From positions 1-64,000 of the forward strand of contig JAFMVD010000025.1 in NCBI GenBank assembly GCA_025499625.1: 64,000 bases of DNA. The letters run 5' to 3'. The DNA is from Carboxylicivirga fragile (lineage in GTDB: Bacteria; Bacteroidota; Bacteroidia; Bacteroidales; Marinilabiliaceae). This document shows positions 25,038 through 41,928 of this stretch, piece by piece; position 1 is the stretch's first letter, and each line of letters opens with the position of its first letter. The position numbers were made by a program, and so were the translations under genes. Under the pieces are notes generated by a model. The model searched no databases. It was not told where the DNA came from and saw only the letters and a program-made list of their open reading frames with translations.

Positions 25038-26756
25038 ATGAATAATATTAAATTGAATATTGCACAGAAACTACTTTTAGGTTTTGGTGTCATATTATTG
25101 CTAATCGTAATAAATGGTGTTTGGACATTTTCTACACTAACATCAAGTAAAAATTTGAACACAAAGTTAACGGGCACCTATTCACCGTCGAGTGATAAGA
25201 TGAGTGAGCTTTCAACTTTAGTTGTTAATTCGAAAATGCTCGTTCGTAGTTGGGTGTTTATTGATACGCAGTCAGACACACCAGATAAGTTGAGACTTAA
25301 AGAATTACAAGACAAAGACTATCCGGCAATAAGAGAAGAATTAAGAGCTTTGTTCGAAGGCTGGGAAGAGGAAGATGTTACTGAGGCAGAAGCAGTTTTT
25401 CATTCGATTGACTCTTTGATCGGTATGCAACAATACATAATGAGTAGCTTGAATTCATTTGAAGCCTACGAAGATGTGATGGTGCTATTTGACGTAGAAC
25501 CCCAAGTTCAAGACGGAGGCGAGGTAATTCTTCTTACCGACGAAATCACTCAGAAGTTATCTGACCTGGAAAATAAGTACACAACTGCTAGCGACGAGGC
25601 TTTAGTTAAAACCAATAGTAGCTTTACCATATTACAGTGGGTAATTATTATCATGAGCATTTTTGTATTAGTAGCGGCTCTATTTACAGCATATCTGCTT
25701 TATAATTCTATTGTTAGTCCATTGGTGAAAGGGGTTAACTTTGCGCAGGCCATAGGTGATGGTGATTTAACCGCTACAGTTGATGTCAACCAAAACGATG
25801 AGATCGGCGATTTAGCGAAAGCCTTAATAAACATGGCTGATAAATTGAAGTCAACTGTTTTATCTATAAAAGAAAATGCAGATGACCTTGTTAGTTCAAG
25901 TGGCCAATTAAAAACCAGTTCGATGAACCTTTCAAAAGGTTCTGCTGATCAAGCAGCTTCAGCAGAAGAGGTATCTACTTCTATTGAAGAGATGGTTGCA
26001 AACATTGATCAGAATACGGACAACTCAATTCAAACTGAGAAAATAACGGTAGAAACGGCTAAAGATGTAAGTGTTGCTGACGAATTATCTTCGCAAGCAG
26101 CTAAGGTAATGAAAGATGTATCTGAGAAAATCACAATCATTAGTGACATCGCTTTCCAAACAAACATACTTGCACTTAATGCCGCAGTAGAAGCTGCCAG
26201 AGCAGGTGAGCACGGGCGCGGTTTCTCAGTTGTTGCAGCAGAGGTTCGTAAATTAGCAGAACGAAGTAAATCAGCAGCCGACGAAATTGTATCCTTGGTA
26301 AAGACAGGATTAAAGGTTTCTCAGGAAGCTGGCGAGAAATCAAAGGCACTGGTACCTGACATTGAAAAGACAACTCAGCTAATCAAAGAAATATCAGCGG
26401 CAAGTTTAGAACAGAAGACTGGTGCAGAGCAAATCAATTTGGCTATGCAACAATTAAATATGATTACGCAGGAAAATGCTTCGTCTTCTGATGAATTGAC
26501 GCAAAGCTCTGATTCATTATCAAACTTAGCCGATAACCTTAAAGATGCGGTTAGTTTCTTCAAGATTGGCGACGGTGATGATGTTGAGGTAGCGCCAGCA
26601 AAGAAAACAAAAGTAGAGAAAGTGGATTCAGAGAAAGCTCCTGAAAAGAAGAAGGCTACACCAAAGCCAAGTACTTCAAAAAAGGATGCTAAAAATCCAA
26701 ATCCGTTTTCAAACTTTGATAAAGATTTTGATTTAGATAATTACGAAAAATTCTAA
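25038..26756 (+). CDS. Methyl-accepting chemotaxis protein with four-helix sensor and CheR-type tether tail
   Basis: 572 residues: TM1 10-30, periplasmic four-helix-bundle sensor about 31-195, TM2 about 197-222, HAMP to about 275, signalling domain to about 510 with tip [18 protein letters not shown] Lys/Pro-rich flexible tail of some 60 residues ends in NYEKF, which fits the CheR/CheB-binding pentapeptide (E. coli NWETF; aromatic-x-x-aromatic). It opens the chemosensory operon and is followed by STAS, CheY, Hpt and CheA genes with very short gaps. Upstream there is no perfect -7 box; TTAGTTTG at 24976-24983 is the nearest. Confidence 0.92.
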
Positions 26757-26765
26757 TTCAACCTT

Positions 26766-27077
26766 ATGGATAATCTACCATATTCAGTATCGTATGAAGA
26801 GTTGCCTGAGAAATATATTCTTAATTTCTCGGGGCAGCTTATTATTAATTATATAGAAAACATCACTGAGCAAGTGAAAAAAAGTGTTAGCGCTAACAAG
26901 GATTTAGAGATAAATATCAAAAATCCCGATAGTGTAGATGTCACTTTTATTCAATTACTCTTGGCCATTAAGGCCACTTTTAAAGCTTCAGAAAAAGAAG
27001 TTATTATCAAAACCGAACTTAAAGATGAACTGGTAACACTCATCGCTAATTCCGGTTTTAATTATGTGCTTAATTAA
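26766..27077 (+). CDS. STAS-domain protein
   Basis: 103 residues, about one STAS domain (anti-sigma-factor-antagonist fold). The pattern is KYILNFSGQLIINYIENI, DLEINIKNPDSVDVTFIQLLLAIKATF, EVIIKTELKDELVTLI. At the usual phospho-serine site (DSSG) it has DVTF, with a Thr two residues after the Asp, so phosphorylation is possible but not assured. STAS proteins are switch partners of serine kinases and PP2C/SpoIIE phosphatases. One of the latter closes this operon at 39325, making a partner-switch link plausible. It lies 9 bp after the receptor gene. Confidence 0.78.
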   Translation: MDNLPYSVSYEELPEKYILNFSGQLIINYIENITEQVKKSVSANKDLEINIKNPDSVDVTFIQLLLAIKATFKASEKEVIIKTELKDELVTLIANSGFNYVLN

Positions 27078-27098
27078 TCAAAAATAGAACATTAGATT

Positions 27099-27464
27099 AT
27101 GGCTAAAACAGTTCTTATTGTTGATGATTCGGAAAGTATTCGCGAAGTTGTCAACTTTACTCTAGAAAACGAAGGTTACGATGTATTAGTAGGTGTAGAC
27201 GGTGAGGATGCCTTAAAGTTCCTTGACGGTCGTACAATTGACATTGTAATAACCGACCTTCATATGCCGAATTTGGATGGCTTAGGTTTAATCAGAAAAG
27301 TAAGAGAAATGGAAGCTTACAAACATATTCCTATTCTTTTCTTAACAACCGAATCTCAAGCATCTAAAAAAATGGAAGCTAAACAAGCTGGTGCAACAGG
27401 ATGGATTATTAAACCATTTGTTCCTGCAAAGCTGCTAAGTGCCATCACCCGAGTTTTACGATGA
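27099..27464 (+). CDS. cheY: CheY-type single-domain response regulator
   Basis: 121 residues, receiver domain only. The acidic pocket is Asp9-Asp10, the phospho-acceptor Asp53 (VITDLHMPNLDG), the switch Thr83 (FLTTES) and the conserved Lys105 (IIKPF). It should be phosphorylated by CheA (27852). With no flagellar genes in view, the target is unknown; gliding motors are one option in this phylum. Its stop overlaps the ATG of the next gene (Hpt) in an ATGA junction. Confidence 0.92.
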   Translation: MAKTVLIVDDSESIREVVNFTLENEGYDVLVGVDGEDALKFLDGRTIDIVITDLHMPNLDGLGLIRKVREMEAYKHIPILFLTTESQASKKMEAKQAGATGWIIKPFVPAKLLSAITRVLR

Positions 27465-27859
27465 TTGAAAGGATTAGACATATCTTCATCAATGAAACGT
27501 CGAATGATTTATGCCTCCTGAAAAAAGAGCTTTACCAAACAAATCACTCAGAGCTTCCAAATGATATTGCTGAAAAGGTTTTTAGAACCATGCATACCAT
27601 CAAAGGTTCGAGTCCAATGTTTGGCTTCGACTCGCTTTCAGAAGTATCTCGATCTGTAGAACAAGCTTACCGTAGCTTAGACCATGGAAAGAGTAAAATA
27701 AATGAGATTATTATAAAAAAAACAAAAGATGTTGTTGCACTTATTGAAGAAGTGCTTAATTCTAAAGAGGATCACCTGCCGAATAGTGAAGACGAAAGGC
27801 AAGCTCTAATAGATTTTTTTAACAACATCAACCGTTTAAACGCACAAACCAATGATTGA
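27461..27859 (+). CDS. Stand-alone histidine phosphotransfer (Hpt) protein
   Basis: 132 residues with one Hpt helical bundle. The phospho-acceptor is His45 in FRTMHTIKGSSPMFGF. The same position and near-identical motif occur in the P1 domain of CheA (His45, FRAMHSLKGGGAMFGF), so this looks like a duplicated CheA P1. It overlaps cheY by 4 bp and cheA by 8 bp, showing tight coupling. It could serve as an extra phosphate donor or sink for CheY, or be phosphorylated in trans by the CheA kinase domain. Confidence 0.88.
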   Translation: MIERIRHIFINETSNDLCLLKKELYQTNHSELPNDIAEKVFRTMHTIKGSSPMFGFDSLSEVSRSVEQAYRSLDHGKSKINEIIIKKTKDVVALIEEVLNSKEDHLPNSEDERQALIDFFNNINRLNAQTND

Positions 27860-29897
27860 TAAGTTTAAAGCAAAATTTGTTGAAGAATCGCTCGACAATA
27901 TCAATGATCTGGAAGAAGCCTTATTTCTTCTGGAAAATGACATGAATAATCGTGAGATTATTGAGCGTATCTTTAGGGCAATGCATTCTCTAAAAGGGGG
28001 AGGCGCCATGTTTGGCTTTAATCATTTGAGCGAATTTACACATCATCTTGAGACTGTATTTGATTTAATTCGGAACGATAAATTGGCTGTTGATAATGAT
28101 ATTATTTCATTAACCTTCGAGGCAATCGATCAGATCAAACACCTTTTACAAGTTGGTGATGTTGATGATGCAGATGAAAAAGCACACCAGTTAGCTTTTA
28201 TTCAACGCATCGAAAAAGTCTCGAATACAGGAGGTGTCAATACTGAAGCTCCTAAAACACAATCAGCAGTAGCTGAAAGTAAACCAGCTGAAGAAGATGG
28301 ATCCAAGAGTTTTCTGATTCATATCAAACCTAATGATGATATACTTAAAAATGGAACCAATCCATTTTATTTGCTCGACGATCTTCATGCAATGGGTAGT
28401 GCGCAAGTATTGGCTTTCGCTAAAGAGGTGCCAGGTTTAGATCAATTTCAACCAATAAGTAATTATTGCCAATGGCAAGTAATACTAAATACGTCTGAAA
28501 GTGTTAATGAAATAAAGGATGTATTCATTTTTGTTGAAGACGAATGCGAAATCTCGATTGAACCACTTAATTCTTCAAACATATTAAATAACACAAACCT
28601 AAAGAATTTAGTTGATACTGCTATTAGTGAACAAAAGCTGATCACTAAAGCTCAACTCGATTCTTTGGAAGGAAGTTCATCTGCTGAGGATAATGCACCA
28701 AAAGATCCTCGCAAACGAACACAGTTAAAAGAGCATAAAATTTCATCCATGAGGGTGAGCTCAGTAAAGATTGATGAATTAGTTAATCTTGTAAGTGAGT
28801 TAGTTACTATACAAGCGCAACTAAATCTATATGCTGAAAAAAGTGGTGAGAATGACATTGTTAATCTTGCTGAAAATATACAAAAGCTTACTCGCCAGTT
28901 ACGCGATAATGCATTTGAAATTAGTCTGATTCCTTTACAAAGCGAATTAATGCGTTTTCAACGTTTGGTTCGAGATCTTTCCAAGGAATTAGACAAAGAA
29001 ATCGACTTTGTAATTGAAGGTGGTGATATCGAATTGGATAAAAACATTATCGAACATTTAACCGATCCACTGTTACATATCATTCGTAACTCTGTTGATC
29101 ATGGTATTGAAATGCCTGATGAACGAATTAAGAATGGAAAGTCGCCAAAGGGAACCATTATTTTTAAAGCCTATTATTCGGGTGCCAGCGTTATAGTTAA
29201 AGTAATTGATGACGGTAAAGGCATTGATCCTGATTTCATACGCGAAAAAGCCATTAAAAAAGGTTTGATCGATAACAAAACAGAATTAAGCCGAAAAGAA
29301 GTATTTGACTTGGTTTTCCTTAGTGGGTTTTCAACTAAAGATCAGGTATCCGATGTTTCAGGGCGAGGCGTAGGAATGGATGTTGTTAAGAAGAAAATTG
29401 GTGAAATACGTGGTGAAGTATCACTTGACTCCGAAATGGGTAAAGGTACTACTTTAACACTTGAATTACCGATGACATTATCCATTATTGATGGCTTACT
29501 TGTTAAAGTTGCAAGCAATCAATATGTGATACCTATTGCCAACATTGAAAAAATCCATGCGATTGACGATATCAATTTTGGTAGTACATTTAGTCATGTA
29601 ATTACCATTGACGATAATCAATATCCATATATTGACTTAAGAGAAACTTTTCAAGAAGAGGCTGTCAGTAAAGGAACAGAGCAATTAATCTTAGTTAAGT
29701 TTGAAGATAAAAAAGTGGGCTTGCTTGTCGATCAGGTAATTGGTGAGTATCAAACCGTGGTAAAAGCTTTAGGTCGATTCCTAAAAAAACAAGAGAACAT
29801 TTCGGGAGCATCTATAATGGGTGACGGTACTATTTCAATGGTTATTGACACGAATCGTTTAATTCATAATAATGCAACTAACAAATACAAAAAGTAA
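27852..29897 (+). CDS. cheA: Chemotaxis histidine kinase CheA
   Basis: 681 residues. P1 Hpt domain 1-105 with His45; linker and a P2-like region about 150-260; P3 dimerisation about 290-360 (ISSMRVSSVKIDELVNLVSELV); P4 ATPase about 365-540 with the N-box HIIRNSVDHGIE, G1 DDGKGID and G2 GRGVGMD; P5 CheW-like about 545-675. It receives signals from MCPs through CheW and phosphorylates CheY and CheB. All catalytic motifs are intact. The start overlaps the Hpt gene by 8 bp. Confidence 0.95.
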   Translation: MIDKFKAKFVEESLDNINDLEEALFLLENDMNNREIIERIFRAMHSLKGGGAMFGFNHLSEFTHHLETVFDLIRNDKLAVDNDIISLTFEAIDQIKHLLQVGDVDDADEKAHQLAFIQRIEKVSNTGGVNTEAPKTQSAVAESKPAEEDGSKSFLIHIKPNDDILKNGTNPFYLLDDLHAMGSAQVLAFAKEVPGLDQFQPISNYCQWQVILNTSESVNEIKDVFIFVEDECEISIEPLNSSNILNNTNLKNLVDTAISEQKLITKAQLDSLEGSSSAEDNAPKDPRKRTQLKEHKISSMRVSSVKIDELVNLVSELVTIQAQLNLYAEKSGENDIVNLAENIQKLTRQLRDNAFEISLIPLQSELMRFQRLVRDLSKELDKEIDFVIEGGDIELDKNIIEHLTDPLLHIIRNSVDHGIEMPDERIKNGKSPKGTIIFKAYYSGASVIVKVIDDGKGIDPDFIREKAIKKGLIDNKTELSRKEVFDLVFLSGFSTKDQVSDVSGRGVGMDVVKKKIGEIRGEVSLDSEMGKGTTLTLELPMTLSIIDGLLVKVASNQYVIPIANIEKIHAIDDINFGSTFSHVITIDDNQYPYIDLRETFQEEAVSKGTEQLILVKFEDKKVGLLVDQVIGEYQTVVKALGRFLKKQENISGASIMGDGTISMVIDTNRLIHNNATNKYKK

Positions 29898-29921
29898 TAT
29901 TTGAGTATTAACAACTTAGGG

Positions 29922-30368
29922 ATGAAAGAACAATTTACATCAATCATATCATTCTACATCAACAAAGAAGTGTTTGCCTTCGATACTTTAAAGGTGCGTA
30001 ATATATTGGAGTATGATAATATAACCCATGTGCCTAATACAAAAGATTATCTTTTGGGCGTAATAAATTTACATGGTAATATTATACCAATTGCCGATTT
30101 TCGAGTAATGATGGGCATGGAGAACATTGAAAACACTCAAGACACATCTATAATTGTTGTTTCAAATGATGGTAAAACAGAGTCCTTAATTGGAATTGTT
30201 GTCGACAGTGTTAAAGAGGTTTTTGACACCGAAGACATTAATGTTCAAGATTCAGTATTTCACGGAAATGCCGGATTGATAAGTGCTTTTGAAGGTTCGA
30301 TACATAAAAATGGTGAGTTCATTCACATCATTGATTTAGATGAAACCGTACAGGAAATTGAAAACTAA
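29922..30368 (+). CDS. cheW: Chemotaxis coupling protein CheW (first copy)
   Basis: 148 residues from the ATG at 29922; an in-frame TTG at 29901 would add seven residues but does not fit the family start. The CheW fold is shown by ISFYINKEVFAFDTLKVRNILEY, LLGVINLHGNIIPIADFR, and GIVVDSVKEVFDTEDINV. It couples MCPs to CheA. A second CheW follows 14 bp later. The two are only distantly similar, so they may serve different receptors. Confidence 0.92.
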   Translation: MKEQFTSIISFYINKEVFAFDTLKVRNILEYDNITHVPNTKDYLLGVINLHGNIIPIADFRVMMGMENIENTQDTSIIVVSNDGKTESLIGIVVDSVKEVFDTEDINVQDSVFHGNAGLISAFEGSIHKNGEFIHIIDLDETVQEIEN

Positions 30369-30382
30369 TAAACTCTAATTAA

Positions 30383-30868
30383 ATGAGTCAGCAAATCGAC
30401 GCATATTTAACTTTTACGATAGGAGAAAATACCTTTGGTATTCATGTCGAGAAGGTACTTGAAATAAAGGAGTATCTGGAACCGAAATCAGTTCCAGAAA
30501 GTTTGCCGTATATTAAAGGAGTAATTGATCATCGTGATCAAATAATTCCCGTAATTGATGCAGCTGCTAAATTTAATATGGGAAACATTTCTATCACACC
30601 TCAATCCTGTATTGTTGTAATGGAGGTTAATAAATCTGAAAATGGTGACCCATTTTCTATTGGTGTGTTGGTAGATGCTGTTTCAGATGTATTTGAGTCT
30701 GACCCTGAGAAAGTACGGAAAATTGAGAATGATTTTAAGCCTGGCTACATAAATGCCACGTATAAAATAAATGAGAATTTAGTGATGATTCTTGACACTG
30801 ATAAGGTGTTTAATGAGAAAGATATTATTGCTCTTGATAAAATCATGAGCGATTTCGAGAACGAATAG
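30383..30868 (+). CDS. Chemotaxis coupling protein CheW (second copy)
   Basis: 161 residues, a single CheW domain: YLTFTIGENTFGIHVEKVLEIKEY, PYIKGVIDHRDQIIPVIDAAAKF, and GVLVDAVSDVFE. It also begins with the QIDAYLTF pattern common in CheW. It stands between the first cheW and cheR, and its stop is separated from the cheR start by a single base. It may link a second receptor set, such as the haem receptor at 3578, to the same CheA; that is inference. Confidence 0.9.
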   Translation: MSQQIDAYLTFTIGENTFGIHVEKVLEIKEYLEPKSVPESLPYIKGVIDHRDQIIPVIDAAAKFNMGNISITPQSCIVVMEVNKSENGDPFSIGVLVDAVSDVFESDPEKVRKIENDFKPGYINATYKINENLVMILDTDKVFNEKDIIALDKIMSDFENE

Positions 30869-30869
30869 A

Positions 30870-31739
30870 ATGCTTGAAAATAAAGATTTAAATACGAATA
30901 AAAAGGAACTGGAATGCTTTAAAGCAGAATTGTCAGATGCCGATTTTTTAGCCTTTAGCGAATTCATTTACAGTGAATTTGGCATAAAGATGCCACCAAT
31001 AAAACGCATAATGCTTCAAGGCCGTTTACTTAAACGTATTCGTGAACTTAATATGCTATCGTACAAAGAGTACAAAGAATATTTTTTCAGTCCTGAAGGA
31101 CAGAAAAAAGAGATCTTTAACTTTTTGAATGTGATTACAACTAATAAGACTGATTTTTTTCGTGAGCCAATCCATTTCGATTTTTTAAGAGATCAGATAT
31201 TACCTCAGTATATTAAAAACAATGAGGCTCTTAAAGTTTGGAGTGCTGGCTGCTCAAGTGGAGAAGAACCTTATACTATTTCAATTGTACTAAACGAGTT
31301 CAAGGCTGAAAATCCAACATTCCGATTTTCCATTCTTGGGTCAGATATCTCAAATAGAGTTTTATCTAATGCGGCTAAAGGAGTATATGCTGAAAATAAG
31401 GTAGGTTTAATGCCCATGTCTCTTAAGAAAAAATATTTTCTTAAGAGTAAAGATAGGGCAAATCCATCCGTAAGGGTAAAGCCCGAACTGCAATCGTTTT
31501 TATCACTCAAGTATGTCAACCTTATGGATGGGCAATATGATGTGAACGAAACCTTTGATGTGATCTTTTGTCGTAACGTTTTAATTTATTTTGATCGTGC
31601 TACGCAAGAGAAGGTGATTAGCAAATTATGTAATTATTTAAAACCCGGGGGGTACTTTTTTATTGGACACTCCGAATCATTATCTGGTATGAATGTGCCG
31701 CTTAAGCACATTAAACCAACCATATTTATTAAAGAATAA
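30870..31739 (+). CDS. cheR: Chemoreceptor methyltransferase CheR
   Basis: 289 residues with the two CheR domains: N-terminal helical part (about 20-95, with TTNKTDFFRE) and the SAM-dependent Rossmann part. The SAM site AGCSSGEEPYT is canonical, followed by ILGSDIS, FDVIFCRNVLIYFD and LKPGGYFFIGHSESL. It methylates receptor glutamates for adaptation. This is the complete, canonical one of three CheR-like proteins in the operon. The NYEKF tail on the receptor at 25038 is a possible docking site. Confidence 0.94.
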   Translation: MLENKDLNTNKKELECFKAELSDADFLAFSEFIYSEFGIKMPPIKRIMLQGRLLKRIRELNMLSYKEYKEYFFSPEGQKKEIFNFLNVITTNKTDFFREPIHFDFLRDQILPQYIKNNEALKVWSAGCSSGEEPYTISIVLNEFKAENPTFRFSILGSDISNRVLSNAAKGVYAENKVGLMPMSLKKKYFLKSKDRANPSVRVKPELQSFLSLKYVNLMDGQYDVNETFDVIFCRNVLIYFDRATQEKVISKLCNYLKPGGYFFIGHSESLSGMNVPLKHIKPTIFIKE

Positions 31740-31768: not shown

Positions 31769-32668
31769 ATGAGCGAATTAACGGATAGGCAACTTTTAAA
31801 GGAACTCAGGTTAAGACTTGAAGAGAGAAAAAAGTATGATACTGAAATGAAAGAGCTTTCCAAAGACTTTCAAACAGTAACAAAGAAACTTAAGGAATCA
31901 GAGGCGCTAAAAAGTCACTTTATTTCTAATATTTCTAACGAAATAGTAAACCCTTTTACTTCCATATTGGGATTATCTAAAGCTATTCTTTCAGTCGAAA
32001 AAAACGATTGGAAAAAGGTGGTTTCGATGGTCGCATTAATCCATAGTGAAGCTTTTAACCTTGATTTTCAGCTAAAGAATATTTTTGTTGCAGCAAAAAT
32101 TGAAGCTGGTGAAATAGCGCCAAATATTACAAAGGTTAATATCCGAAGTGTTGCACAATCGGTAATTGATGCATTTAATATCATCTCACGAAAAATGGGA
32201 ATTGATATAGATCTTCAGTTTAATGTTGAATATGGTTTTGGTAAAAACTTTTATTTTAAAACCGATTCAGAAAAAATAAAGCTTGTTTTAAGTAACCTCA
32301 TTAATAATGCCTTAAAATACAGTTATAAAGACAGTAAAGTAACTGTAAAGATATGGGTTGATGATGATATTTTAAATATAGCTGTTCAAGACAGTGGTAC
32401 AGGAATCTCAGAAAAGAATCAGAAAATTATTTTCGAACGATTCAAGCGTCTTGACTCTGGTATTAATTCAATTAACCGTGGACATGGATTAGGATTATCT
32501 ATTACCAAAGCATTACTCGATGTATTAGGCGGTCACATAGATATTGAAAGTAAAAAAGGAGAAGGATCAACCTTTACTGTTAATTTGCCGGAAGCCAAAA
32601 ATATTATTGAAGGTTTCAGTGGTGATGGTAATGATGTGTTCTTTGATGACGATGACGAGATTTTTTAA
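31769..32668 (+). CDS. Histidine-kinase-like protein lacking the phospho-acceptor histidine
   Basis: 299 residues, no membrane segment. A coiled coil (about 8-48) is followed by a HisKA-type dimerisation helix, then a HATPase domain (about 150-285) with N-box LINNALKYSY, G1 QDSGTGIS, and G2 GHGLGLSI. The H-box reads ISNISNEIVNP: Asn57 (codon AAC) replaces the histidine of the usual SHEIRTP. It therefore cannot autophosphorylate in the normal way. It may act as an ATP-dependent scaffold or phosphatase, or phosphorylate a partner in trans. An acidic tail (DDDDEIF) closes it. It sits between cheR and cheD. Confidence 0.85.
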   Translation: MSELTDRQLLKELRLRLEERKKYDTEMKELSKDFQTVTKKLKESEALKSHFISNISNEIVNPFTSILGLSKAILSVEKNDWKKVVSMVALIHSEAFNLDFQLKNIFVAAKIEAGEIAPNITKVNIRSVAQSVIDAFNIISRKMGIDIDLQFNVEYGFGKNFYFKTDSEKIKLVLSNLINNALKYSYKDSKVTVKIWVDDDILNIAVQDSGTGISEKNQKIIFERFKRLDSGINSINRGHGLGLSITKALLDVLGGHIDIESKKGEGSTFTVNLPEAKNIIEGFSGDGNDVFFDDDDEIF

Positions 32669-32676
32669 GGAATAAT

Positions 32677-33153
32677 ATGGAGAAGAATTATTTACAACAT
32701 TTTCTCTACCCCTCTTCCTTACATGTCAATAAAGATCCATACGTCATTAAAACCATATTAGGAAGCTGCGTAGCAGTCTGTATCTGGGATAAGAAGCTAA
32801 AATTTGGTGGTATGAACCATTACATGCTTCCTAACTGGAATGGGAACGACTTGGCTTCCCCAAAGTATGGTAACATTGCAATCGATAAGATTATTGAACG
32901 CATGTTTTATTTAGGCAGTGAGAAAAAGAATTTGGTAGCTAAAATATTCGGCGGTGGCGAATTACTCGAAGCTAGTACAGGCAACTCCATGCTCATTGGA
33001 GAACGTAACATACGTGTTGCGCGCCTTATGCTTGAAGAGCGAGACATTCCCATTGTAGCATCTAGTACGGGAGGAAAAAGAGGCCGAAAAATTTTATTTT
33101 TCAATGATACAGGCGAGGTACGCCATAAGTTTCTAGAAAAAAAAGTATATTAA
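32677..33153 (+). CDS. cheD: Chemoreceptor glutamine deamidase CheD
   Basis: 158 residues. CheD deamidates receptor glutamines and, in some bacteria, assists CheC-type phosphatases. The catalytic site is visible: Cys in ILGSCVAVCIWD, then His in GGMNHYMLPN. KIFGGGELL and ILFFNDTGEV follow as in the family. It is 8 bp after the histidine-less kinase and 130 bp before cheB. No CheC or CheX was seen, so the deamidase role is more likely than CheC regulation. Confidence 0.93.
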   Translation: MEKNYLQHFLYPSSLHVNKDPYVIKTILGSCVAVCIWDKKLKFGGMNHYMLPNWNGNDLASPKYGNIAIDKIIERMFYLGSEKKNLVAKIFGGGELLEASTGNSMLIGERNIRVARLMLEERDIPIVASSTGGKRGRKILFFNDTGEVRHKFLEKKVY

Positions 33154-33283: not shown

Positions 33284-34363
33284 ATGGAAAAAAAGATTCG
33301 GGTACTTGTTGTTGATGATTCGGCTGTAGTTAGACAAAGCTTATCATCTATTCTTGAATCAGATCCTGATATTGAAGTAATGGGTACTGCTGCAGATCCT
33401 ATCATTGCAGTAAAAAAAATAATGAAAGAAATTCCCGATGTTATTACACTTGACATCGAAATGCCCCGAATGGATGGTTTGACATTTCTACGAAAAATAA
33501 TGTCTCAACATCCCATTCCTGTGGTTGTTATCTCTAGTTTAACAACAGAGGGAACCGAGGTAGCCATGAAAGCACTCGAATATGGCGCAAGTGAAATTAT
33601 TGGTAAACCTGCAATGAATGCCGCTCAATTCATTAATGAATCCAAAATTTTACTTTGCGATGCCGTAAAAGCTGCATCACATGTTAAGCTAAAACGCCGC
33701 AAGATAGCTACTGCTCCTCCAATGCCTGCCGTTAAGCCAAAATATTCTGCGGATGTAATGATCGATAAAGCGCCGTCATTTAAGCGTATTATTGATACTG
33801 AAAAAATAATTGTACTTGGGGCATCAACGGGAGGTACTGAAGCTATTCGACAATTTCTGAAGCGATTACCCGATAAAATGCCTGGTATTGCTATCGTACA
33901 ACATATGCCTGAGGGCTTTACCAAATCTTTTGCCAATAGCCTTAATAATATTTGTGGTCTTGAAGTTAAAGAAGCTGAACACGGTGATAAGTTATATCAA
34001 GGCCGGGTTTTAGTTGCTCCAGGTAATAAGCACATGTTATTAAAACGAGTTGGTAAAGAATATTCGGTAGATGTAAAAGAAGGGCCACTTGTTAACCGAC
34101 ATCGCCCATCGGTGGATGTACTTTTCCGGTCAGCAGCAAGATATGCCGGTAATAATGCAACCGCTATTATACTAACGGGTATGGGTAATGATGGAGCCAA
34201 AGGTTTGCTAGAGTTGAAAGAGTCCGGTGCTCATACTATTGCTCAAGATGAAGCCTCGTCGGTTGTATTCGGAATGCCAAAGGAAGCTATTAAGCTTGAC
34301 GCGGCAAATCAAATATTATCGCTTGAAAAAATAGCACCATACATAATATCCAAATTAGGATAA
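33284..34363 (+). CDS. cheB: Chemotaxis methylesterase/response regulator CheB
   Basis: 359 residues. Receiver domain (1-120) with Asp11-Asp12 and phospho-site Asp57 ([12 protein letters not shown]), then a linker and the methylesterase domain (about 165-355). The catalytic triad is intact: Ser in LGASTGGT, His in QHMPEGF, and Asp in GMGNDGAKG. It removes methyl groups from receptors when phosphorylated by CheA. It closes the canonical half of the operon; the next gene begins 44 bp later. Confidence 0.95.
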
Positions 34364-34407: not shown

Positions 34408-36285
34408 ATGGGAAAAGGAAATATAAAAAATATAAGAAGTAAATTTACCTTAAGAGGGTTCTTACTTGGTCTGACTATCTATTTAGTTGCGTTGTTTTTA
34501 GGCGTTCAAATTATAGGTGATACATACAAGCTAAATAGTATATTTGATCTATATCCAATTCTTCCGGCCTTGTGGATATTTACCATATTCCCATTTGTGA
34601 CAGCCTATATTGGTTACTATATATCAGGTAATTTTAATAATGTCATCAAAAAGCAGCGCAAACACCTGAAACATGAAGCCCATAGAAGTAACTTAGTTTT
34701 AGACTTTGTTGATAACCTTCGTCAGGATAATTTTGAAGCAGCTTTGCAGCTAAATGAAGAAAAGGATACACTTGCCAAATCCTTATTACGTTTACGCGAT
34801 TATCTTATCAAAAGTAAAAAAGATGAAGAGCAACGTAGGGTTGAAGAAGAACAACGTAATTGGGTAACCCAGGGTCTTGCACAATTTGGGGAGATCTTGC
34901 GAAAAGAAAGTGATAACCTTGAAGATTTAAGTTACAACATTATCAATTACCTGGTTGATTATATGAAAATTAATCAAGCAGGTTTTTATCTCTTAAATAA
35001 CTTAAGCAAAACCGAGAAATTTTTTGAGCTTACGGCTTGTGTTGCGTTTGACCGCAAGAAGTTTACCGATAAGCGAATTGATTGGGAAGAGGGCTTAATT
35101 GGTAGATGTGCACTTGAAATGGAAACCATCTATATGACGGATGTTCCTAACGATTACTTAAATATTACATCGGGTTTAGGTGAAGCTAACCCTCGATCAA
35201 TTCTAATTGTACCATTAAAAACGAACGATGAAATATATGGCGTACTTGAAATGGCCAGCTTCAAAGAGTTTGACGATTATGAGATTGAATTCGTTGAAAA
35301 AACGGCTGAAAGTATTGCCTTAACCATTTCATCTGTACAAAATACCATACGCACTACAAAACTTCTTAAAGAGACGCAGAATCAAGCTGAGCGAATGTCG
35401 CAACAGGAAGAAGAGCTTCGTCAGAACCTGGAAGAAATGCAGGCTACTCAAGAAGAAAGTGACCGCCGCGAAGTAGAGATGAAAGGTATTTTAGAGGCCA
35501 TTGATCATGCTGCCATTAGCTCCGAATTTGAAGTGGATGGTACGCTTATTAATGTCAATCAAAACTTCTTAAGAACATATAGGTACAATCCTGAAGAAAT
35601 TGATGGACAGAATATAAAAATATTCTTCTTTAAAGATGATGTTACTGAACTTGATCAGATATTAACTGATCTGCGAAATGGACATAATTTTAAAGGTAGA
35701 GTTAAGCGCAGGACTAAAATGGGAGATGAAATTTTCCTATTAAGTACCTACACTCCGGTAATTGATCATGAAGGTGAGATTATTAAGATTCTAAGCCTTG
35801 AGAATGACATTACGGAACAAGTTAAAATGGAAGAAGAGCTTAAGCACAGTAAAGATGAACTGGGCGTAATGCTTGATGAAGCCAAGAAAGAAGTAACAGA
35901 ACAATTTAAGGAAATTGAAGCGGTTAAAATCAGGAATGAGAAAACACTTGAAGGTGCCTTGGATGCCATTATTACTACTAATAAAGATGGTATACTCGAA
36001 TTCTTTAACGTTGCTGCTGAAAAACTTTGGGGCTATGATAGATCGGAAGTACTAGGCCAACATGCCTCAATGTTATTCTCCGATGAAACCCAAAAGAACG
36101 ATGAATTCATATCTGCTTTCATATCTAGTGATAAAGATAAAATTATAGGTGAGCGCCGCGAAGCACCAATAAAAAATAAAGTTGGTACTGAAGAAGCTGT
36201 ACTTTTCTTATTGTCAGAAGCAAAAGTTGGAGAGGATCATTCTGTAACAGCCTTCATTCAGAACGTTGAGGTAGAGTTATTTTAA
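34408..36285 (+). CDS. Membrane sensor with GAF and two PAS domains, no output domain
   Basis: 625 residues: two membrane helices (about 16-36 and 50-72), a coiled coil, a GAF domain (about 155-310), another coil, PAS 1 (about 355-480, with ENDITEQ end) and PAS 2 (about 505-620). It stops after the second PAS, with no kinase, cyclase or methyl-accepting domain. The GAF part is close to that of the protein at 39325 (shared ITSGL, SLIIVPL-type stretches), so the two probably arose from one ancestor. It heads the non-canonical half of the operon and probably acts by protein contact. Confidence 0.82.
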   Translation: MGKGNIKNIRSKFTLRGFLLGLTIYLVALFLGVQIIGDTYKLNSIFDLYPILPALWIFTIFPFVTAYIGYYISGNFNNVIKKQRKHLKHEAHRSNLVLDFVDNLRQDNFEAALQLNEEKDTLAKSLLRLRDYLIKSKKDEEQRRVEEEQRNWVTQGLAQFGEILRKESDNLEDLSYNIINYLVDYMKINQAGFYLLNNLSKTEKFFELTACVAFDRKKFTDKRIDWEEGLIGRCALEMETIYMTDVPNDYLNITSGLGEANPRSILIVPLKTNDEIYGVLEMASFKEFDDYEIEFVEKTAESIALTISSVQNTIRTTKLLKETQNQAERMSQQEEELRQNLEEMQATQEESDRREVEMKGILEAIDHAAISSEFEVDGTLINVNQNFLRTYRYNPEEIDGQNIKIFFFKDDVTELDQILTDLRNGHNFKGRVKRRTKMGDEIFLLSTYTPVIDHEGEIIKILSLENDITEQVKMEEELKHSKDELGVMLDEAKKEVTEQFKEIEAVKIRNEKTLEGALDAIITTNKDGILEFFNVAAEKLWGYDRSEVLGQHASMLFSDETQKNDEFISAFISSDKDKIIGERREAPIKNKVGTEEAVLFLLSEAKVGEDHSVTAFIQNVEVELF

Positions 36286-36294
36286 AGTTGTGAT

Positions 36295-37146
36295 ATGATA
36301 GAGGGGATTGAACTAAAGCAATATTTGCATGAGCTAAAGAAGCATACGGCTTATGATTTTAGCGATTATTCCGATAATTCTATTCATCGTAGAATTTTAA
36401 AGATTCTAAAAGACTACGATATTTCAATGGAGCAACTAATAGAACGAACAAAATCGGATAGTGCCTTTGTCGAAAAAGTTGTTGAAGAGATTACGGTAAA
36501 CACAACCGAATTATTTCGAGATACACATATATGGAGTGCTTTTTATGAAAAAATATACCCTTCAATAAAGAGCAAAAAATTCATTAATATTTGGCATGCT
36601 GGTTGCAGCTCTGGAATGGAAGTCTATTCAAACCTAATATTATTAAATGAGTTAGGCCTATTAGATAAAGCGAGAGTTTACGCTACAGATATTAACACAC
36701 GTATGGTGACCATGTCCAAAAATGGTCAATACAATTATCGCTTCAACTATAGGTACCTCGATGATTTCAATTCAACGCTTGCTAAAAAACCGATTAATGG
36801 TATTTCTAAAATCGATTTTAGCAAATATTTTGATATTGATGAGGACAAGGATACAATGACTGTAAAAGCTTTTCTTCGTAAAGTTCCTCAGTTTATCAAG
36901 CACGATTTAGTACAGGAAGAAGTGCCCTTTTTCAATAAATTCGATATTGTTTTCTGTCGAAATGTATTGATCTACTTTAATAGCAAACTTCAATCCAAGA
37001 TATTTAAATTGTTTTATGAGCAAATGTATCCAGGTAGCTTCCTTCTTTTAGGTAATCATGAAGTTTTATCTGGTTTTTATAAAACCAAGTTTATAAAAAA
37101 CGGGCCAGTATTTGTAAAAAATACTGCCTTTCATTTCAAATATTAG
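36295..37146 (+). CDS. CheR-like methyltransferase (second copy)
   Basis: 283 residues with both CheR domains. The N-terminal domain has the TVNTTELFRD block. The SAM site is AGCSSGMEVYS, differing from the usual GEEPYS at two positions. YATDIN, DIVFCRNVLIYF and the closing FLLLGNHEVLSG are kept, so it may still methylate. It differs enough from the CheR at 30870 to suggest another substrate, possibly the adjacent GAF/PAS sensor. It lies 9 bp after that sensor and 4 bp before the next CheR-like gene. Confidence 0.85.
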   Translation: MIEGIELKQYLHELKKHTAYDFSDYSDNSIHRRILKILKDYDISMEQLIERTKSDSAFVEKVVEEITVNTTELFRDTHIWSAFYEKIYPSIKSKKFINIWHAGCSSGMEVYSNLILLNELGLLDKARVYATDINTRMVTMSKNGQYNYRFNYRYLDDFNSTLAKKPINGISKIDFSKYFDIDEDKDTMTVKAFLRKVPQFIKHDLVQEEVPFFNKFDIVFCRNVLIYFNSKLQSKIFKLFYEQMYPGSFLLLGNHEVLSGFYKTKFIKNGPVFVKNTAFHFKY

Positions 37147-37150
37147 TCAA

Positions 37151-37975
37151 ATGGCGGTAAACTATAGCATACGAGAGCTTAGAGGTGCAGCTGAAGAGTT
37201 GACTAATAAAATGGGCATTCCATTTAATGAATGGAGTCAATCGTTTTTAAAACGTCGATTGTTATACGCAACCGAAAAGCTTGGTATTAGGAAACATGAA
37301 CAATTGCTCGAGGCAATTAACAACGACGAGCAAAAAGAAGAATTTTCTCGCCATATGACTGTGCCGGTAAGTGAGATGTTTAGGGATGCTAGACTATGGC
37401 GTACTTTGCGACAACACTTTAATGAAACATCATATAACGACACTATTAATGTTTGGATACCGGATGTGTCGACTGGAGAAGAATTATATACGCTTTTAAT
37501 TTTAGCGAAAGAAAATGGCTTATCCGATAAGATGAACGTTTGGATAAACCATAACTCAAAATCGATTCTTAAAGATATTGAAAATGGGATTGTTGGCACC
37601 CGAAAATTAGACACCAACTCTTTTAATTACAAGCGTTTTGAGGGCACAGCATCATTTGACAATTACATTTCAGAAATTGAAGGCGGGTTTCAATTAAGTA
37701 ATGATCTGCTGAAGAACGTAAACTTCGTACATGGCTATTTTCTGAATACTGCACCTCAGGAAAGGATGGATTTAATCCTATTTAGAAATGTAATGTTGTA
37801 TTACAAAAAAGACTTTCATAACACACTTAAAGATTACGTTGATCAAAAGCTCAAGCCGGGTGGATTATTATGTGTAGGTGTTAAAGAAGTACTTCCATCT
37901 CCATTTTCATCTCGCTTCGAATGTATTGATGTGAAAGAAAAAATTTATCAAAAATTTAAAGTATTAACAGACTAA
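37151..37975 (+). CDS. Degenerate CheR-like protein, probably without methyltransferase activity
   Basis: 274 residues aligned end to end with CheR. The N-terminal block is kept (VPVSEMFRD). The SAM-binding loop has become WIPDVSTGEEL: the Gly-Cys of AGCSTGEE is lost. The acidic ATD(I/N) that holds the SAM ribose is now INHNS. The RNV motif persists as LFRNVMLYY. Loss at two cofactor contacts predicts a pseudo-enzyme that binds partners rather than methylates. The frame is intact and gene spacing normal, so it is selected, not decayed. Confidence 0.75.
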   Translation: MAVNYSIRELRGAAEELTNKMGIPFNEWSQSFLKRRLLYATEKLGIRKHEQLLEAINNDEQKEEFSRHMTVPVSEMFRDARLWRTLRQHFNETSYNDTINVWIPDVSTGEELYTLLILAKENGLSDKMNVWINHNSKSILKDIENGIVGTRKLDTNSFNYKRFEGTASFDNYISEIEGGFQLSNDLLKNVNFVHGYFLNTAPQERMDLILFRNVMLYYKKDFHNTLKDYVDQKLKPGGLLCVGVKEVLPSPFSSRFECIDVKEKIYQKFKVLTD

Positions 37976-37984
37976 ATATATCAC

Positions 37985-38551
37985 ATGAAGGGGCAATATA
38001 AGGCAGTAGTAATTGGTGGTTCAGCAGGGAGTTTTTCTGTTGTTAGTCGCTTATTATCTAAACTGGACAGTAATTTTCCTCTTCCTATCATTCTTAGCCT
38101 GCACCGTTTAAAACACGTTAGATCAGGACTGGTTGAAGGCATTAGTTTAAAATCAAACTTAAAAGTGATAGAGCCAAATGACAAGGAAAAAATTGTGGCT
38201 GGTAATGTATACCTGGCACCTTCTAACTATCATATGTTTATCGAACATGATGGCACTTTTTCACTGTCTACCGAAGAACCTTTAAACCATAGTCGCCCGT
38301 CAATTGACCATACCTTGTCTTCGGCAGCTTTCTTTTTTAGGGCGAAACTAGTCGGTATATTGCTAACTGGTGCTAATAAAGATGGCGCAAAGGGCATGAA
38401 AGACATTGCAGACAAAAAAGGTTATACAATAGTCCAAGATCCTTCCACATGCGATATTGATACTATGCCCAAGAATGCGCTGAGAATAATGAAACCTAAC
38501 AAAGTTTCTTCTCCAGATGAGATACTTAGTTTTTTAAATAACCTAGCCTAA
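37985..38551 (+). CDS. Free-standing CheB-type methylesterase domain
   Basis: 188 residues, methylesterase domain only, without a receiver. The triad appears intact: Ser in IGGSAGS, His in SLHRLKHVRSG (QHMPEGF position) and Asp in GANKDGAKGM. LAPSNYHM and HSRPSIDHTLSSAA match the family core. Without a receiver it is not regulated by phosphorylation in the usual way. It may oppose the CheR-like protein at 36295 in a separate methylation cycle. It starts 9 bp after the degenerate CheR-like gene. Confidence 0.85.
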   Translation: MKGQYKAVVIGGSAGSFSVVSRLLSKLDSNFPLPIILSLHRLKHVRSGLVEGISLKSNLKVIEPNDKEKIVAGNVYLAPSNYHMFIEHDGTFSLSTEEPLNHSRPSIDHTLSSAAFFFRAKLVGILLTGANKDGAKGMKDIADKKGYTIVQDPSTCDIDTMPKNALRIMKPNKVSSPDEILSFLNNLA

Positions 38552-38557
38552 ATACGG

Positions 38558-39304
38558 ATGAAAAAATATAGCTATATCTATTTATTGGGAAGCCTTATTC
38601 TTGTAACGGCATTGGCGAAGTACATTTTTGTTCCAACGGTATTTCCACCGTTTTACTATACCTTCGAAATTGTATCCTTACTTTTAGTATTAGGCTTAAC
38701 TTATTTTGCCGTTAAAAATTTCGATACACGAACAGGTGATACGGAATGCGAAAAACAATGCGCTCAACGAGATAAATTATTAGGTGAGAACAAAGAACTA
38801 AAAAGAAAAATTGAGGCTTTAGAGTTAGAGAAAACAAATACTCAAAATTATCAATCAAAGGAAGAACAGTTTTTATCAGCTCTGAATCAACTAAGTATTT
38901 CTGAAACAGAAAATGTAGGTAATGCTATATTAAAACTCATTGGCGATCAATTTGAATTAATTGCCGGCATTGTTTATGAAAAAAATGATGACAGCACTTC
39001 ATTTCAAGCTAATTCAACTTTTGGAGTTGATGACGATTGGAAGGTTGAGCCGATTAAACAAGGAGAAGGTTTGCATGGTCAATCAATTGCAGAGAATATA
39101 GCTACTGAAATAAGTGAGATTCCCGAAGAATATTTTGAAGCAAACTCAGGCACAGGTAAGGCAAAGCCAGCTTATATTTATATATTACCGTACCAAATGG
39201 AAAATGGTAAAGCTTGGTTGATAGAAATAGCTTCATTCAAAAAAATAGGTATTCACGATATGTGGAATAAATACCTTGAATCGGCTGAAAACAAGAACAA
39301 ATAA
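38558..39304 (+). CDS. Membrane protein with coiled coil and GAF-like domain
   Basis: 248 residues: two membrane helices (about 5-25 and 33-52), a basic/acidic coiled coil (about 70-105), and a GAF-like domain (about 110-240) with GEGLHGQSIAENIATEISEIPEEYF and IYILPYQMENGKAW. These stretches parallel the GAF domains of the two larger sensors beside it. There is no output domain. It is probably a small subunit of a membrane signalling complex with the proteins at 34408 and 39325. Confidence 0.75.
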   Translation: MKKYSYIYLLGSLILVTALAKYIFVPTVFPPFYYTFEIVSLLLVLGLTYFAVKNFDTRTGDTECEKQCAQRDKLLGENKELKRKIEALELEKTNTQNYQSKEEQFLSALNQLSISETENVGNAILKLIGDQFELIAGIVYEKNDDSTSFQANSTFGVDDDWKVEPIKQGEGLHGQSIAENIATEISEIPEEYFEANSGTGKAKPAYIYILPYQMENGKAWLIEIASFKKIGIHDMWNKYLESAENKNK

Positions 39305-39324
39305 TCTGTTGAATTATTATATAT

Positions 39325-41928
39325 ATGGCAAGATTATCGAAAAAACTTAAACGACTATTAACTGTAACGGCTATTAAAGAACGCGATTGGTATGTTCTTT
39401 CAATAGGTCTGTTGATGTTGCTATTTCTTATTTGGTCTGGTTTTTTATCCTTAACAAATTCGTATTTTTCTTTTGAGAATATAATACGTATTCACCGTTC
39501 TATTTTAGTATGGTTTATTGATTTACTTGTATTCTTGGTACCTCTTATTGTTTTATTCATAATTAACTACAATAAAACGAATAGCCTCAAACTAAAAGAG
39601 GAGATTCGACAATTACAAAGTAAAATAAACCTGAGTATTGACCTTGCCGAGAAAATAGGACAAGGGGATTTAGATAATGTAAATCATACGGAAGGAAAAC
39701 TATCTGAAACATTAGTTAATCTGGGCGAAAATCTAAAGCAAACAAAAGAAAAAGAAGAAATATATAACTGGATTGCAAGGGGTAAAGAAACTATTTCAGA
39801 TATTCTAAGGTCGCACAATAGAGTTGATGATTTAGCCGACGAAGTATTAAGAGGAATTATTAACTATTCGGGAGGAATACAGGGTAGTTTATTTTTACTT
39901 GAAGGTAAGGAATTGGTTAATATATCAACATATGCCTACAATCGTAAACGCTTTGAGAAGCAGAGAATACCGATAGGTAAAGGACTAATTGGAGAAGTTG
40001 CATATGAAAAAGCGATGATCTACCGAACCGAATTACCTGATGATTATTTCAACATTACATCAGGACTTCTAGGAGATAGAAAACCGAAAAGTTTAATTAT
40101 TGTACCTCTACTGCAAGAGAAAGAATTGCAAGGTATATTTGAAATAGCATTTTTAAAAGATGCATTGCCGGCTCATATACTTGAGTTTGCAGAAGAACTT
40201 AGTAGTATTGTTGGGCGTACTATCTATAATTTAAAGATTAATCAAAAAACAGAAACACTTCTTAAGGAATCGCAGGAGATGACGGTTACACTAAAGAAGA
40301 ATGAAAAGCAACTTCAGCAAAGTGCTGCTGAAATGTTAGAGGCTCAAGACGACTTAGAAAAATCCAACAAACTATTAGAAAGTCAAATTCAAGAGGTTGA
40401 ACATGCGCAACAAAGGCTTGAGGCGCTATTAACCAATGCTTCAGAGTTTATCTCAATTTATAATGAAAATCAACAATTAGTATTTGAAAGTCCATCCGTT
40501 AAACAAATTCTTGGCTATAGTCCCGAAGATAAGATATCTGGTATGGATCCTGATTTATTGACACCACGTGGCTATAAAACCATTAATAATTTATTTAAGT
40601 ATTTGCTTGAAACACCGGGTGGAGAACAATCAGCACAATATACCTACCTAAAGAAAAGTGGGCAGAAACTTTTCCTTGAAACAAAGGGTAAAAACTTGTT
40701 ACATGATCCTGCCATAAAGGGAATTATTTTCAACACACAGGATATTACCGAACGTAAACGTGCTGAAAAGGAAGAACGTATGAAGAGTCGAATGCAATCA
40801 TTATCTGAGAATTCGCCGGATATGATTATTCGAATTAATACAGGTGGTAAATTAGTATACGTCAATCCACAAGTTACTTCATTTATTAAGCAAGCCGGCT
40901 CAGAACTAGTCAAAAAACGTGTTAATGAATTAGACATTGACGAGAACTTTAAGGAATACATGATGAGTTCCCTAAAGGAAATTCGTAAGGGTTTAGAACA
41001 GCTTATTTCTGAGGTAGAGATTGAAACCGAAGATGGTATCAGAATTATGGAAATCAAAGCCATCCCAGAATTCAATGAAGATAAGGATCTGGAATCAATT
41101 CTTTTTGTGGCTCACGACATGACCGAATTCAAAAAGATTGAACAAGAAATAAAGGAGAAGAACAAAAAGATATCAGATAGTATTAATTACGCTCAACGAA
41201 TTCAAACAGCCATATTGCCTGATACTAATTTATTGCAGCAATATTATCCGCGTTCATTCATCTTTTACCGACCAAAAGATGTGGTTAGTGGTGATTTCCC
41301 TTGGATGTTCAAAAAGGACAATTACTTCTACATAGCGGCCGTCGATTGTACGGGGCATGGGGTTCCGGGAGCATTGCTTTCATTCATTGGTTATTTCTTA
41401 ATGAATAACATTGTAAGTTCATCCAATAAAATGACAGCTGCTGAACTACTTGATAGCTTGCATCTCGAAGTTCGACGAACTTTAAGACAAGATCAGGAAG
41501 GAGCTAATGGCCGCGATGGAATGGATCTGGCTTTGGCTAAAATTGATCTTGACTCAGATGAGTTACAGTTTGCCGGTGCTCATAATCCAATGTATTACCT
41601 ATCCGAAGGAGAGCTTCAGATATATAAAGGATCGCGAAAAGGTATAGGTGGCAAACCGCTTCTTAAGAAAGTTGAGAAAGACTTTGAGAATAACGTTATT
41701 AGATATAAAAAAGGAGACCAGTTCTTTATTTTCTCAGATGGTTTACCCGATCAATCAGGCGGGCCGAAAGGACGTAAATACCAATCGAAAAGAATTAGAG
41801 AAGGTTTAACTGAGGCGCCAAATCAAACGATGGCTCATTTTGAGCGCCATTTTACCACTGATTTCTATGATTGGATGGGAGATTACAAGCAAGTTGATGA
41901 TGTGCTATTAATAGGCTTAGAATTATAA
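39325..41928 (+). CDS. Membrane GAF-PAS-PAS sensor with SpoIIE/PP2C-type serine phosphatase
   Basis: 867 residues: two membrane helices (about 23-45, 58-82), a coiled coil, GAF (about 155-310), coil, PAS 1 (about 370-480, ITERKRAEKE end), PAS 2 (about 490-610), a short signalling helix, then a SpoIIE phosphatase (about 630-865). The phosphatase metal Asp residues lie in SGDFPW, DCTGHGVPGA, RDGMDLALAK and FSDGLPDQSGG. Such enzymes dephosphorylate STAS or SiaC-type partners. A STAS gene opens this operon and SiaC is at 50621. It is the last gene before the operon's terminator. Confidence 0.9.
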   Translation: MARLSKKLKRLLTVTAIKERDWYVLSIGLLMLLFLIWSGFLSLTNSYFSFENIIRIHRSILVWFIDLLVFLVPLIVLFIINYNKTNSLKLKEEIRQLQSKINLSIDLAEKIGQGDLDNVNHTEGKLSETLVNLGENLKQTKEKEEIYNWIARGKETISDILRSHNRVDDLADEVLRGIINYSGGIQGSLFLLEGKELVNISTYAYNRKRFEKQRIPIGKGLIGEVAYEKAMIYRTELPDDYFNITSGLLGDRKPKSLIIVPLLQEKELQGIFEIAFLKDALPAHILEFAEELSSIVGRTIYNLKINQKTETLLKESQEMTVTLKKNEKQLQQSAAEMLEAQDDLEKSNKLLESQIQEVEHAQQRLEALLTNASEFISIYNENQQLVFESPSVKQILGYSPEDKISGMDPDLLTPRGYKTINNLFKYLLETPGGEQSAQYTYLKKSGQKLFLETKGKNLLHDPAIKGIIFNTQDITERKRAEKEERMKSRMQSLSENSPDMIIRINTGGKLVYVNPQVTSFIKQAGSELVKKRVNELDIDENFKEYMMSSLKEIRKGLEQLISEVEIETEDGIRIMEIKAIPEFNEDKDLESILFVAHDMTEFKKIEQEIKEKNKKISDSINYAQRIQTAILPDTNLLQQYYPRSFIFYRPKDVVSGDFPWMFKKDNYFYIAAVDCTGHGVPGALLSFIGYFLMNNIVSSSNKMTAAELLDSLHLEVRRTLRQDQEGANGRDGMDLALAKIDLDSDELQFAGAHNPMYYLSEGELQIYKGSRKGIGGKPLLKKVEKDFENNVIRYKKGDQFFIFSDGLPDQSGGPKGRKYQSKRIREGLTEAPNQTMAHFERHFTTDFYDWMGDYKQVDDVLLIGLEL

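Follow-up and report, generated by a model that had tools for sequence, protein, structure and literature searches.

In Pseudomonas aeruginosa, SiaB and SiaA balance the phosphorylation of SiaC at T68, as passages of PMC7647112 describe. Parts of a second report state that SiaC promotes the diguanylate cyclase SiaD, that phosphorylation blocks the SiaC-SiaD interaction and, as a proposal of its authors, that DUF1987 (SiaC) proteins modulate adjacent proteins (PMC8457831). In rhizobia, CheS is a single STAS domain encoded in a che cluster; it binds CheA and has an effect on CheY phosphoryl transfer, according to sections of PMC12654446, and the Fig. 1 legend of PMC9239204 includes S and K genes among the abbreviations for its class drawings. 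For the FHA-ABC (ATP-binding cassette) transporter Rv1747, a passage of PMC5549992 describes a protein partner that binds an FHA domain. Here we analysed 64,000 nucleotides from Carboxylicivirga fragile (contig JAFMVD010000025.1, positions 1 to 64,000; the window), in which a run of 17 genes at 25038-41928 joins a chemosensory operon to relatives of such parts. With moderate confidence, we consider the locus a union of two modules, a chemosensory operon (module A, 25038-34363) and a switch (module B, 34408-41928 plus a displaced block at 51585-46059), the switch being one in which GAF sensors tuned by CheR2 and CheB2 would act through SiaC phosphorylation on an ABC exporter.

The earlier note on this DNA had described the 17 genes as an operon with a canonical and a non-canonical half. 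We found all 17 open reading frames (ORFs) in the order that it gave, all on the + strand, with Pfam support for 15. The gaps between them are -8 to 44 bp, with the exception of 130 bp between CheD and CheB1. In the first half, a methyl-accepting chemotaxis protein (MCP) with HAMP, CheY, Hpt, CheA, two CheW, CheR, a HATPase kinase, CheD and REC-CheB were above the Pfam cut-off. In the second half, the same held for a GAF protein with two PAS domains, the CheR part of CheR2 (its CheR_N part was slightly under the cut-off), CheR3 (CheR only), a free CheB and a GAF-PAS-SpoIIE protein. Pfam and motifs thus bear out both the division into halves and the claim that an intact CheR is accompanied by a degenerate copy. 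The 5.6 Mb assembly holds two CheB matches, both inside the window. The part of module B within the run is as follows, with S-adenosylmethionine abbreviated SAM.

34408..36285, + strand, membrane sensor with GAF-PAS-PAS, where the modules meet (Pfam; hydrophobic N-terminal segments)
36295..37146, + strand, CheR2, SAM motif kept (PF01739, 134 bits)
37151..37975, + strand, CheR3, CheR family, degenerate SAM motif (PF01739, 70.7 bits)
37985..38551, + strand, CheB2, free methylesterase domain (PF01339, 156.8 bits)
38558..39304, + strand, small membrane GAF-like protein, 248 residues (GAF match to the SpoIIE protein; two hydrophobic segments)
39325..41928, + strand, membrane GAF-PAS-SpoIIE (PP2C) phosphatase, SiaA-like (PF07228)
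41950-41975, + strand, terminator-like stem-loop 3' of SpoIIE (10 pairs plus a T run)

The three GAF proteins are related. The GAF-PAS sensor and the SpoIIE protein are paralogues across about 500 residues (E 7e-34), and the 248-residue protein, which has no Pfam match, shows a 61-residue match to the GAF domain of the SpoIIE protein (E 4e-6 for that single comparison), so that its label as a GAF protein holds by this one match. Catalytic positions, whose roles are those known for the CheB, CheR and PP2C families, are kept in CheR2, CheB2 and SpoIIE. CheR2 retains G103 and G107 in 41/41 rows, and Ser13, His40 and Asp133 of CheB2 are present in 40/40 rows and, in the overlapping named set, in 79/79. 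The SpoIIE residues D657, D674, D805, D858 and D859 are found in 37/37 rows of a first set and in 73-74 of 75 named rows, the remainder being gaps or a fragment. Bacteroidales combine the intact upstream CheR2 with the degenerate CheR3, and Cytophagales such as Chryseolinea (L127), Ohtaekwangia (L137), Fulvivirga (L147/L166) and Microscilla (L161) have just one CheR in the set, with an intact SAM motif. In a CheR tree, in which the row L122 marked 'single' is really an upstream copy, the 16 degenerate copies form one clade with support 100/99. Having lost its SAM site, CheR3 is perhaps a scaffold or a regulator.

The earlier note named the genes of the second half correctly but missed five more, which in the window lie on the other strand. 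Outside the host genus, three further conserved genes follow SpoIIE, namely DUF6272 (SiaB), SiaC and an ABC gene, with genes for a lipoprotein and for a small secreted protein behind them. We found the same five genes, in the same order as in relatives, on the - strand at 46059-51585, 4.1 kb beyond the SpoIIE terminator.

51651..51680, - strand, candidate Bacteroidota-type promoter (TTG..TAnnTTTG) 5' of siaB (a pattern match alone, without a chance control, to an assumed consensus)
51013..51585, - strand, SiaB-like kinase (DUF6272; PF19788; best solved relative 6kko_A, E 7e-16)
50621..51001, - strand, SiaC phosphoprotein with Thr68 (PF09345; best solved relative SiaC, E 5e-14)
47533..50598, - strand, ABC exporter with TerB (8-138), FHA-like (about 150-240), ABC and ABC2 membrane parts (Pfam; AlphaFold2 model and fold matches)
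46563..47498, - strand, probable lipoprotein, conserved (C28 invariant in 40 rows)
46059..46499, - strand, small protein, probably secreted, with weak NPCBM likeness (E 0.0016, below the cut-off)

T68 of SiaC is kept in 64/64 rows and corresponds in the alignment to the Thr of the T68 peptide from P. aeruginosa. The best solved relative of the SpoIIE protein is 6k4e, the PP2C domain of P. aeruginosa SiaA (E 1e-35). The window therefore encodes, as judged from sequence, a predicted SiaA-type PP2C phosphatase with its metal-binding acids, a SiaB kinase and a SiaC with Thr68. Because the nearest solved relatives of all three are P. aeruginosa SiaA, SiaB and SiaC, SpoIIE most likely has SiaB/SiaC, and not STAS, as its partners in the Ser/Thr branch. 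The first 267 residues of the ABC protein are modelled by AlphaFold2 as a TerB and an FHA-like fold (mean pLDDT, the predicted local distance difference test score, 85). Functional FHA domains bind phospho-Thr by an Arg and a Ser-x-x-His. The FHA-like region here keeps S187 in 36/39 and N204 in 39/39 rows; a clear Arg/His is lacking, and a phospho-Thr pocket is not evident. For the lipoprotein model (pLDDT 84), Foldseek returned nothing at E 0.001. A diguanylate cyclase (SiaD) as the product of the ABC gene, third of the conserved genes beyond SpoIIE, was considered and rejected because of its TerB-ABC match in Pfam and the absence of GGDEF.

To follow these genes across relatives we used several sets. 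CheR3 matched strongly in 34 family genomes, and the family set takes 32 of these (G025 and G026 were omitted for their short contigs, and the match in G024 is weak). The named set holds the best 80 of 480 relatives and partly overlaps a set of 40 loci; among these best 80, the closest named relatives of the host are Carboxylicivirga species and other Marinilabiliaceae. A 65-locus subset extends 9 kb or more beyond CheB2 and excludes L109 and L121 (no CheB2 ORF after the overlap filter) and 13 shorter loci. CheR3 matches at E 0.001 were obtained in 50/60 relatives, the weak ones including ordinary CheR. In the 65 loci, CheB2 is followed by a SpoIIE protein of at least 600 residues in all 65, by SiaB and SiaC in 56, by ABC and lipoprotein genes in 55 and by the secreted protein in 51. 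SpoIIE, SiaB, SiaC, ABC and lipoprotein genes are consecutive among labelled genes in 55/65, and eight of the nine loci lacking SiaB belong to the host genus, in which the block has moved.

SiaB is present in 14/14 host-genus genomes. Its distance from CheR3 is about 13 kb in the window and about 32-113 kb in eight other genomes that have both on one contig; in the remaining five, SiaB is on a different contig. In a neighbouring genus (G022) the distance is about 4 kb, within the run. The displaced block stays whole in the window, the one genome for which this was seen. Probable carotenoid genes at 42077-46022 (an amine-oxidase-type enzyme, a squalene/phytoene synthase, a lycopene cyclase and two ORFs without a Pfam match) separate SpoIIE from it, and further along, at 59761-61587, a 608-residue protein combines a class III cyclase domain with an HD domain. 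A second SiaB-SiaC pair of the same genome (contig C71, L077 4360-9013) is accompanied by a divergent paralogous ABC protein and a small secreted protein, and a set resembling it occurs in G104 (L203). In a draw from the phylum, SiaC was found in 13/198 genomes, several times with other neighbours, so SiaB-SiaC has more than one setting, module B among them.

Module B is not confined to genomes with chemoreceptors. Two genomes, G049 (90% complete) and G053 (99%), carry the run CheR2-CheR3-CheB2-GAF-SpoIIE-SiaB-SiaC-ABC-lipoprotein-secreted protein, and genome-wide domain matches gave no CheW domain and no MCP signalling domain in either. The large GAF-PAS gene is inside the run in G049 and not in G053. 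G039 and G055 are also without CheW and MCP domains; the stretches fetched from them hold CheR/CheB parts alone. These genomes bear on the idea that CheR2 and CheB2 serve MCP arrays as auxiliary adaptation enzymes, with the Sia block a functionally unlinked neighbour. The 18 MCP-domain matches in the host genome and the position of CheR2/CheB2 in one operon-like run with CheA would suit that idea, as would a statement in part of PMC9239204 that REC-less auxiliary CheB belongs to the F3 class. It is nevertheless unlikely, as G049 and G053 keep the CheR-CheB2-SpoIIE-Sia run without MCP or CheW, the SpoIIE and SiaB/SiaC genes follow CheB2 across the 65 loci at the frequencies given above, and in L164 the SpoIIE-SiaB-SiaC-ABC part is divergent from the CheR-CheR-CheB2 part yet remains beside it. 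We conclude that module B is a switch present in many Bacteroidota, also alone.

GGDEF (PF00990) was found neither in the host genome nor in any of 25 carriers (0/25), against 8/14 controls, which leaves SiaC here without its known output, a diguanylate cyclase. Among the 65 loci, the ABC gene comes after SiaC in 55/56 that bear SiaC, and the adjacent exporter is the best candidate for the SiaC output. The earlier note had likened the second half to a CheB-CheR-PAS hybrid sensor encoded as separate proteins; the likeness is real for domain content and goes no further. If module B were such a split hybrid with a transcriptional or second-messenger output, the ABC gene would be merely co-regulated. 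Its domain set equals that of such fusions, and relatives have CheR matches within open frames of about 870-1370 residues. However, Pfam detected neither a kinase domain nor a receiver in the module B proteins, and the GGDEF count and the place of the ABC gene argue in the same direction, leaving this explanation quite unlikely.

In the two-module model, the three membrane GAF proteins would form a sensor complex. CheR2 would add, and CheB2 would remove, methyl groups on the GAF proteins or on a partner, and this would determine how active the SpoIIE phosphatase is. SpoIIE would then remove, and SiaB add, the phosphate at SiaC Thr68. In one of its two states, SiaC may bind the ABC protein at its cytosolic TerB/FHA-like part, and this binding, together with the lipoprotein, would gate the export of some presumed substance.

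Several observations weigh against this model. Methylation is its weakest step: the strict MCP methylation pattern is present in the MCP and absent from the GAF proteins, although the coiled coil of the GAF-PAS protein carries an EE-rich motif in 30/34 and 39/55 rows of two overlapping sets. L103 is without the Sia block, L107 without the ABC gene and L121 without a labelled SiaC or ABC gene.

Module A is a complete chemosensory operon, with an MCP, a CheS-like STAS protein, CheY, Hpt, CheA, two CheW, CheR1, a His-less kinase, CheD and CheB1. The MCP, CheW, CheA, CheY, CheR and CheB proteins have their key residues. Its genes and the gene in front of it are the following.

24355..24885, + strand, YfiR/HmsC-like protein (DUF4154; PF13689, 108.9 bits)
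25038..26756, + strand, MCP with HAMP (PF00015, PF00672)
26766..27077, + strand, STAS protein in a CheS-like position between MCP and CheY (STAS matches below the Pfam cut-off)
27099..27464, + strand, CheY (PF00072)
27461..27859, + strand, free Hpt protein with His45 (PF01627; H45 in 26/26 rows)
27852..29897, + strand, CheA (PF01627, PF02895, PF02518, PF01584)
29901..30368, + strand, first CheW (PF01584)
30383..30868, + strand, second CheW (PF01584)
30870..31739, + strand, CheR1, canonical (PF01739, PF03705)
31769..32668, + strand, kinase whose ATP-site boxes are intact, with Asn57 at the phospho-His position (alignment)
32677..33153, + strand, CheD (PF03975)
33284..34363, + strand, CheB1, REC-methylesterase (PF00072, PF01339)

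The STAS label of the earlier note is supported by scores just below the cut-offs (22.4 bits against 29.2, and 21.5 against 22.6), and T60 and D58 are kept in 32/32 rows. The sole match to solved structures was a designed TIM barrel, so kinship with CheS rests on position and domain type, that is, on a small single-STAS protein encoded in a che cluster. As STAS accompanies the CheA half and not SpoIIE, we read it as CheS-like. The kinase named in the earlier note has its ATP-site boxes but lacks the phospho-acceptor His of an active histidine kinase; N57 occurs in 32/32 rows and aligns with the H-box His of 4u7n, and Asn is also at this position in L171, L172, L175 and L180. The protein is very strongly conserved in the che operon. 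FliM was not found in the host genome or in any of seven carriers tested (0/7), and GldL was found in 7/7; the CheY output is therefore probably non-flagellar, and gliding or the type IX motor is a possible output.

The earlier note had taken STAS and SpoIIE as one serine-phosphorylation branch. A partner switch on CheA, in which SpoIIE would dephosphorylate STAS and the His-less kinase would be the STAS kinase, could draw on the invariance of STAS Thr60 and of the kinase ATP-site boxes and Asn57 (32/32) and on the presence of STAS, kinase and SpoIIE in one operon-like run. Comparison of loci disfavours this claim. G059, G041 and G052 (L171, L172 and L175) have a CheY-CheA-CheW-CheR1-kinase-CheD-CheB1-GAF-PAS run without SpoIIE. 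In G059 and G041 a STAS gene precedes CheY, so that STAS and the His-less kinase stand with CheA in SpoIIE-less loci, and a CheR-CheB2-GAF-SpoIIE-SiaB-SiaC-ABC set is located elsewhere in the genome; L175 has the kinase without a STAS-labelled gene. STAS also adjoins CheY-CheA in L173, which like L171 and L172 has no second half, and in L178, which is cut by a contig end. Conversely, no STAS-labelled gene is present in the 53 named loci that lack the first half (whole genomes were not searched for STAS), of which 51 have a SpoIIE protein of at least 600 residues and 48 have SiaC. STAS thus tracks the CheA half, SiaB and SiaC follow SpoIIE in 56/65, and the SpoIIE domain is nearest to SiaA among solved proteins, all of which makes a STAS-SpoIIE branch very unlikely. 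In the che operons outside the family, a long, probably helical protein is encoded upstream of STAS-CheY-CheA (L171 5405-7135, L172 11932-13773, L175 12131-13873), with a motif 'LQY[QH]DII[RK]QK' reminiscent of CheZ.

The YfiR/HmsC-like gene adjoins the MCP gene on its upstream side in 27/40 loci, with a median gap of 30 bp. Proteins of this kind usually have a partner related to cyclic di-GMP, and here the gene sits in a genome without any GGDEF match, so that this partner is missing.

As for the joining of the modules, all 17 genes are collinear in 25/32 family loci. Six of the 32 lack one or two genes by BLAST labelling (Hpt in all six, plus CheY in L060 and CheB2 in L049), and in the remaining locus, L067, the first half is absent from its contig stretch; that genome, G031 (L067, L180), has the halves on different contigs. 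The GAF-PAS gene directly follows CheB1 in 31/31 family loci. The association of the halves is accordingly conserved in the family, but they are joined in just 27/80 named loci, several of the other 53 ending at contig ends. In most named loci outside Marinilabiliaceae the two halves lie apart, so the union seems to be specific to a lineage in which two modules became joined. The absence of a terminator between the halves, asserted in the earlier note, agrees with our search, as no convincing one was found; apart from the site after SpoIIE, terminator-like sites over the region were at chance level (10 found against 9.3 expected). Sigma-70-type promoter sites were also at chance level (62 against 66.3 expected), and a Bacteroidota-type promoter pattern gave two matches in 24200-42200, both intragenic (MCP and GAF-PAS), with none in the CheD-CheB1 gap. 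Sequence patterns thus offer no positive evidence for an internal promoter in the 17-gene run. In Marinilabiliaceae, module A would have been joined in front of module B, so that, judging from gene order, the genes for chemoreceptor and export are probably co-expressed, presumably by co-transcription.

A broader proposal, which we advance only tentatively and hold to be less probable than its negation, is that CheR and CheB act here outside chemotaxis. A methylation system without chemoreceptor, CheA or CheY would tune a GAF-phosphatase complex, and a SiaB/SiaC switch would directly gate an ABC exporter, the whole having later been plugged into the chemosensory array of Marinilabiliaceae. If true, adaptation-type protein methylation would extend beyond chemoreceptors, and in GGDEF-less bacteria the SiaABC switch would have an exporter as a second type of output. 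It would also provide a lead on the role of chemosensory arrays in FliM-less Bacteroidota, and a widely conserved set of unnamed genes would become directly testable.

We found no identical system in the literature searched, which left out most subscription papers and all bioRxiv preprints, in agreement with the earlier note; as far as searched, the combination is undescribed and consists of known kinds of parts joined together. Like CheB-CheR-PAS hybrid sensors, module B has CheB, CheR, a coiled coil and PAS together, but it has them in separate ORFs instead of a single-polypeptide kinase, with no kinase and with a PP2C/Sia output. Module A shares the MCP-STAS-CheY-CheA order with CheA operons that contain STAS (CheS) and histidine-kinase genes, given the position of rhizobial CheS between MCP and CheY, and differs in its extra free Hpt, its His-less kinase, the lack of FliM in the genome and the joined module B. 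The predicted FHA-like cytosolic domain on an ABC transporter recalls FHA-ABC transporters such as Rv1747, whereas TerB is added here, the phospho-Thr pocket is not evident and SiaC is a presumed partner. From SiaABCD the locus is set apart by a host genome without GGDEF or SiaD, and thus without a SiaD output, by GAF and PAS domains on the phosphatase, by the ABC exporter gene after SiaC and by CheR/CheB alongside; what it has in common with SiaABC(D) of P. aeruginosa is the PP2C phosphatase, the SiaB kinase and SiaC Thr68, for which that system provides the nearest solved relatives.

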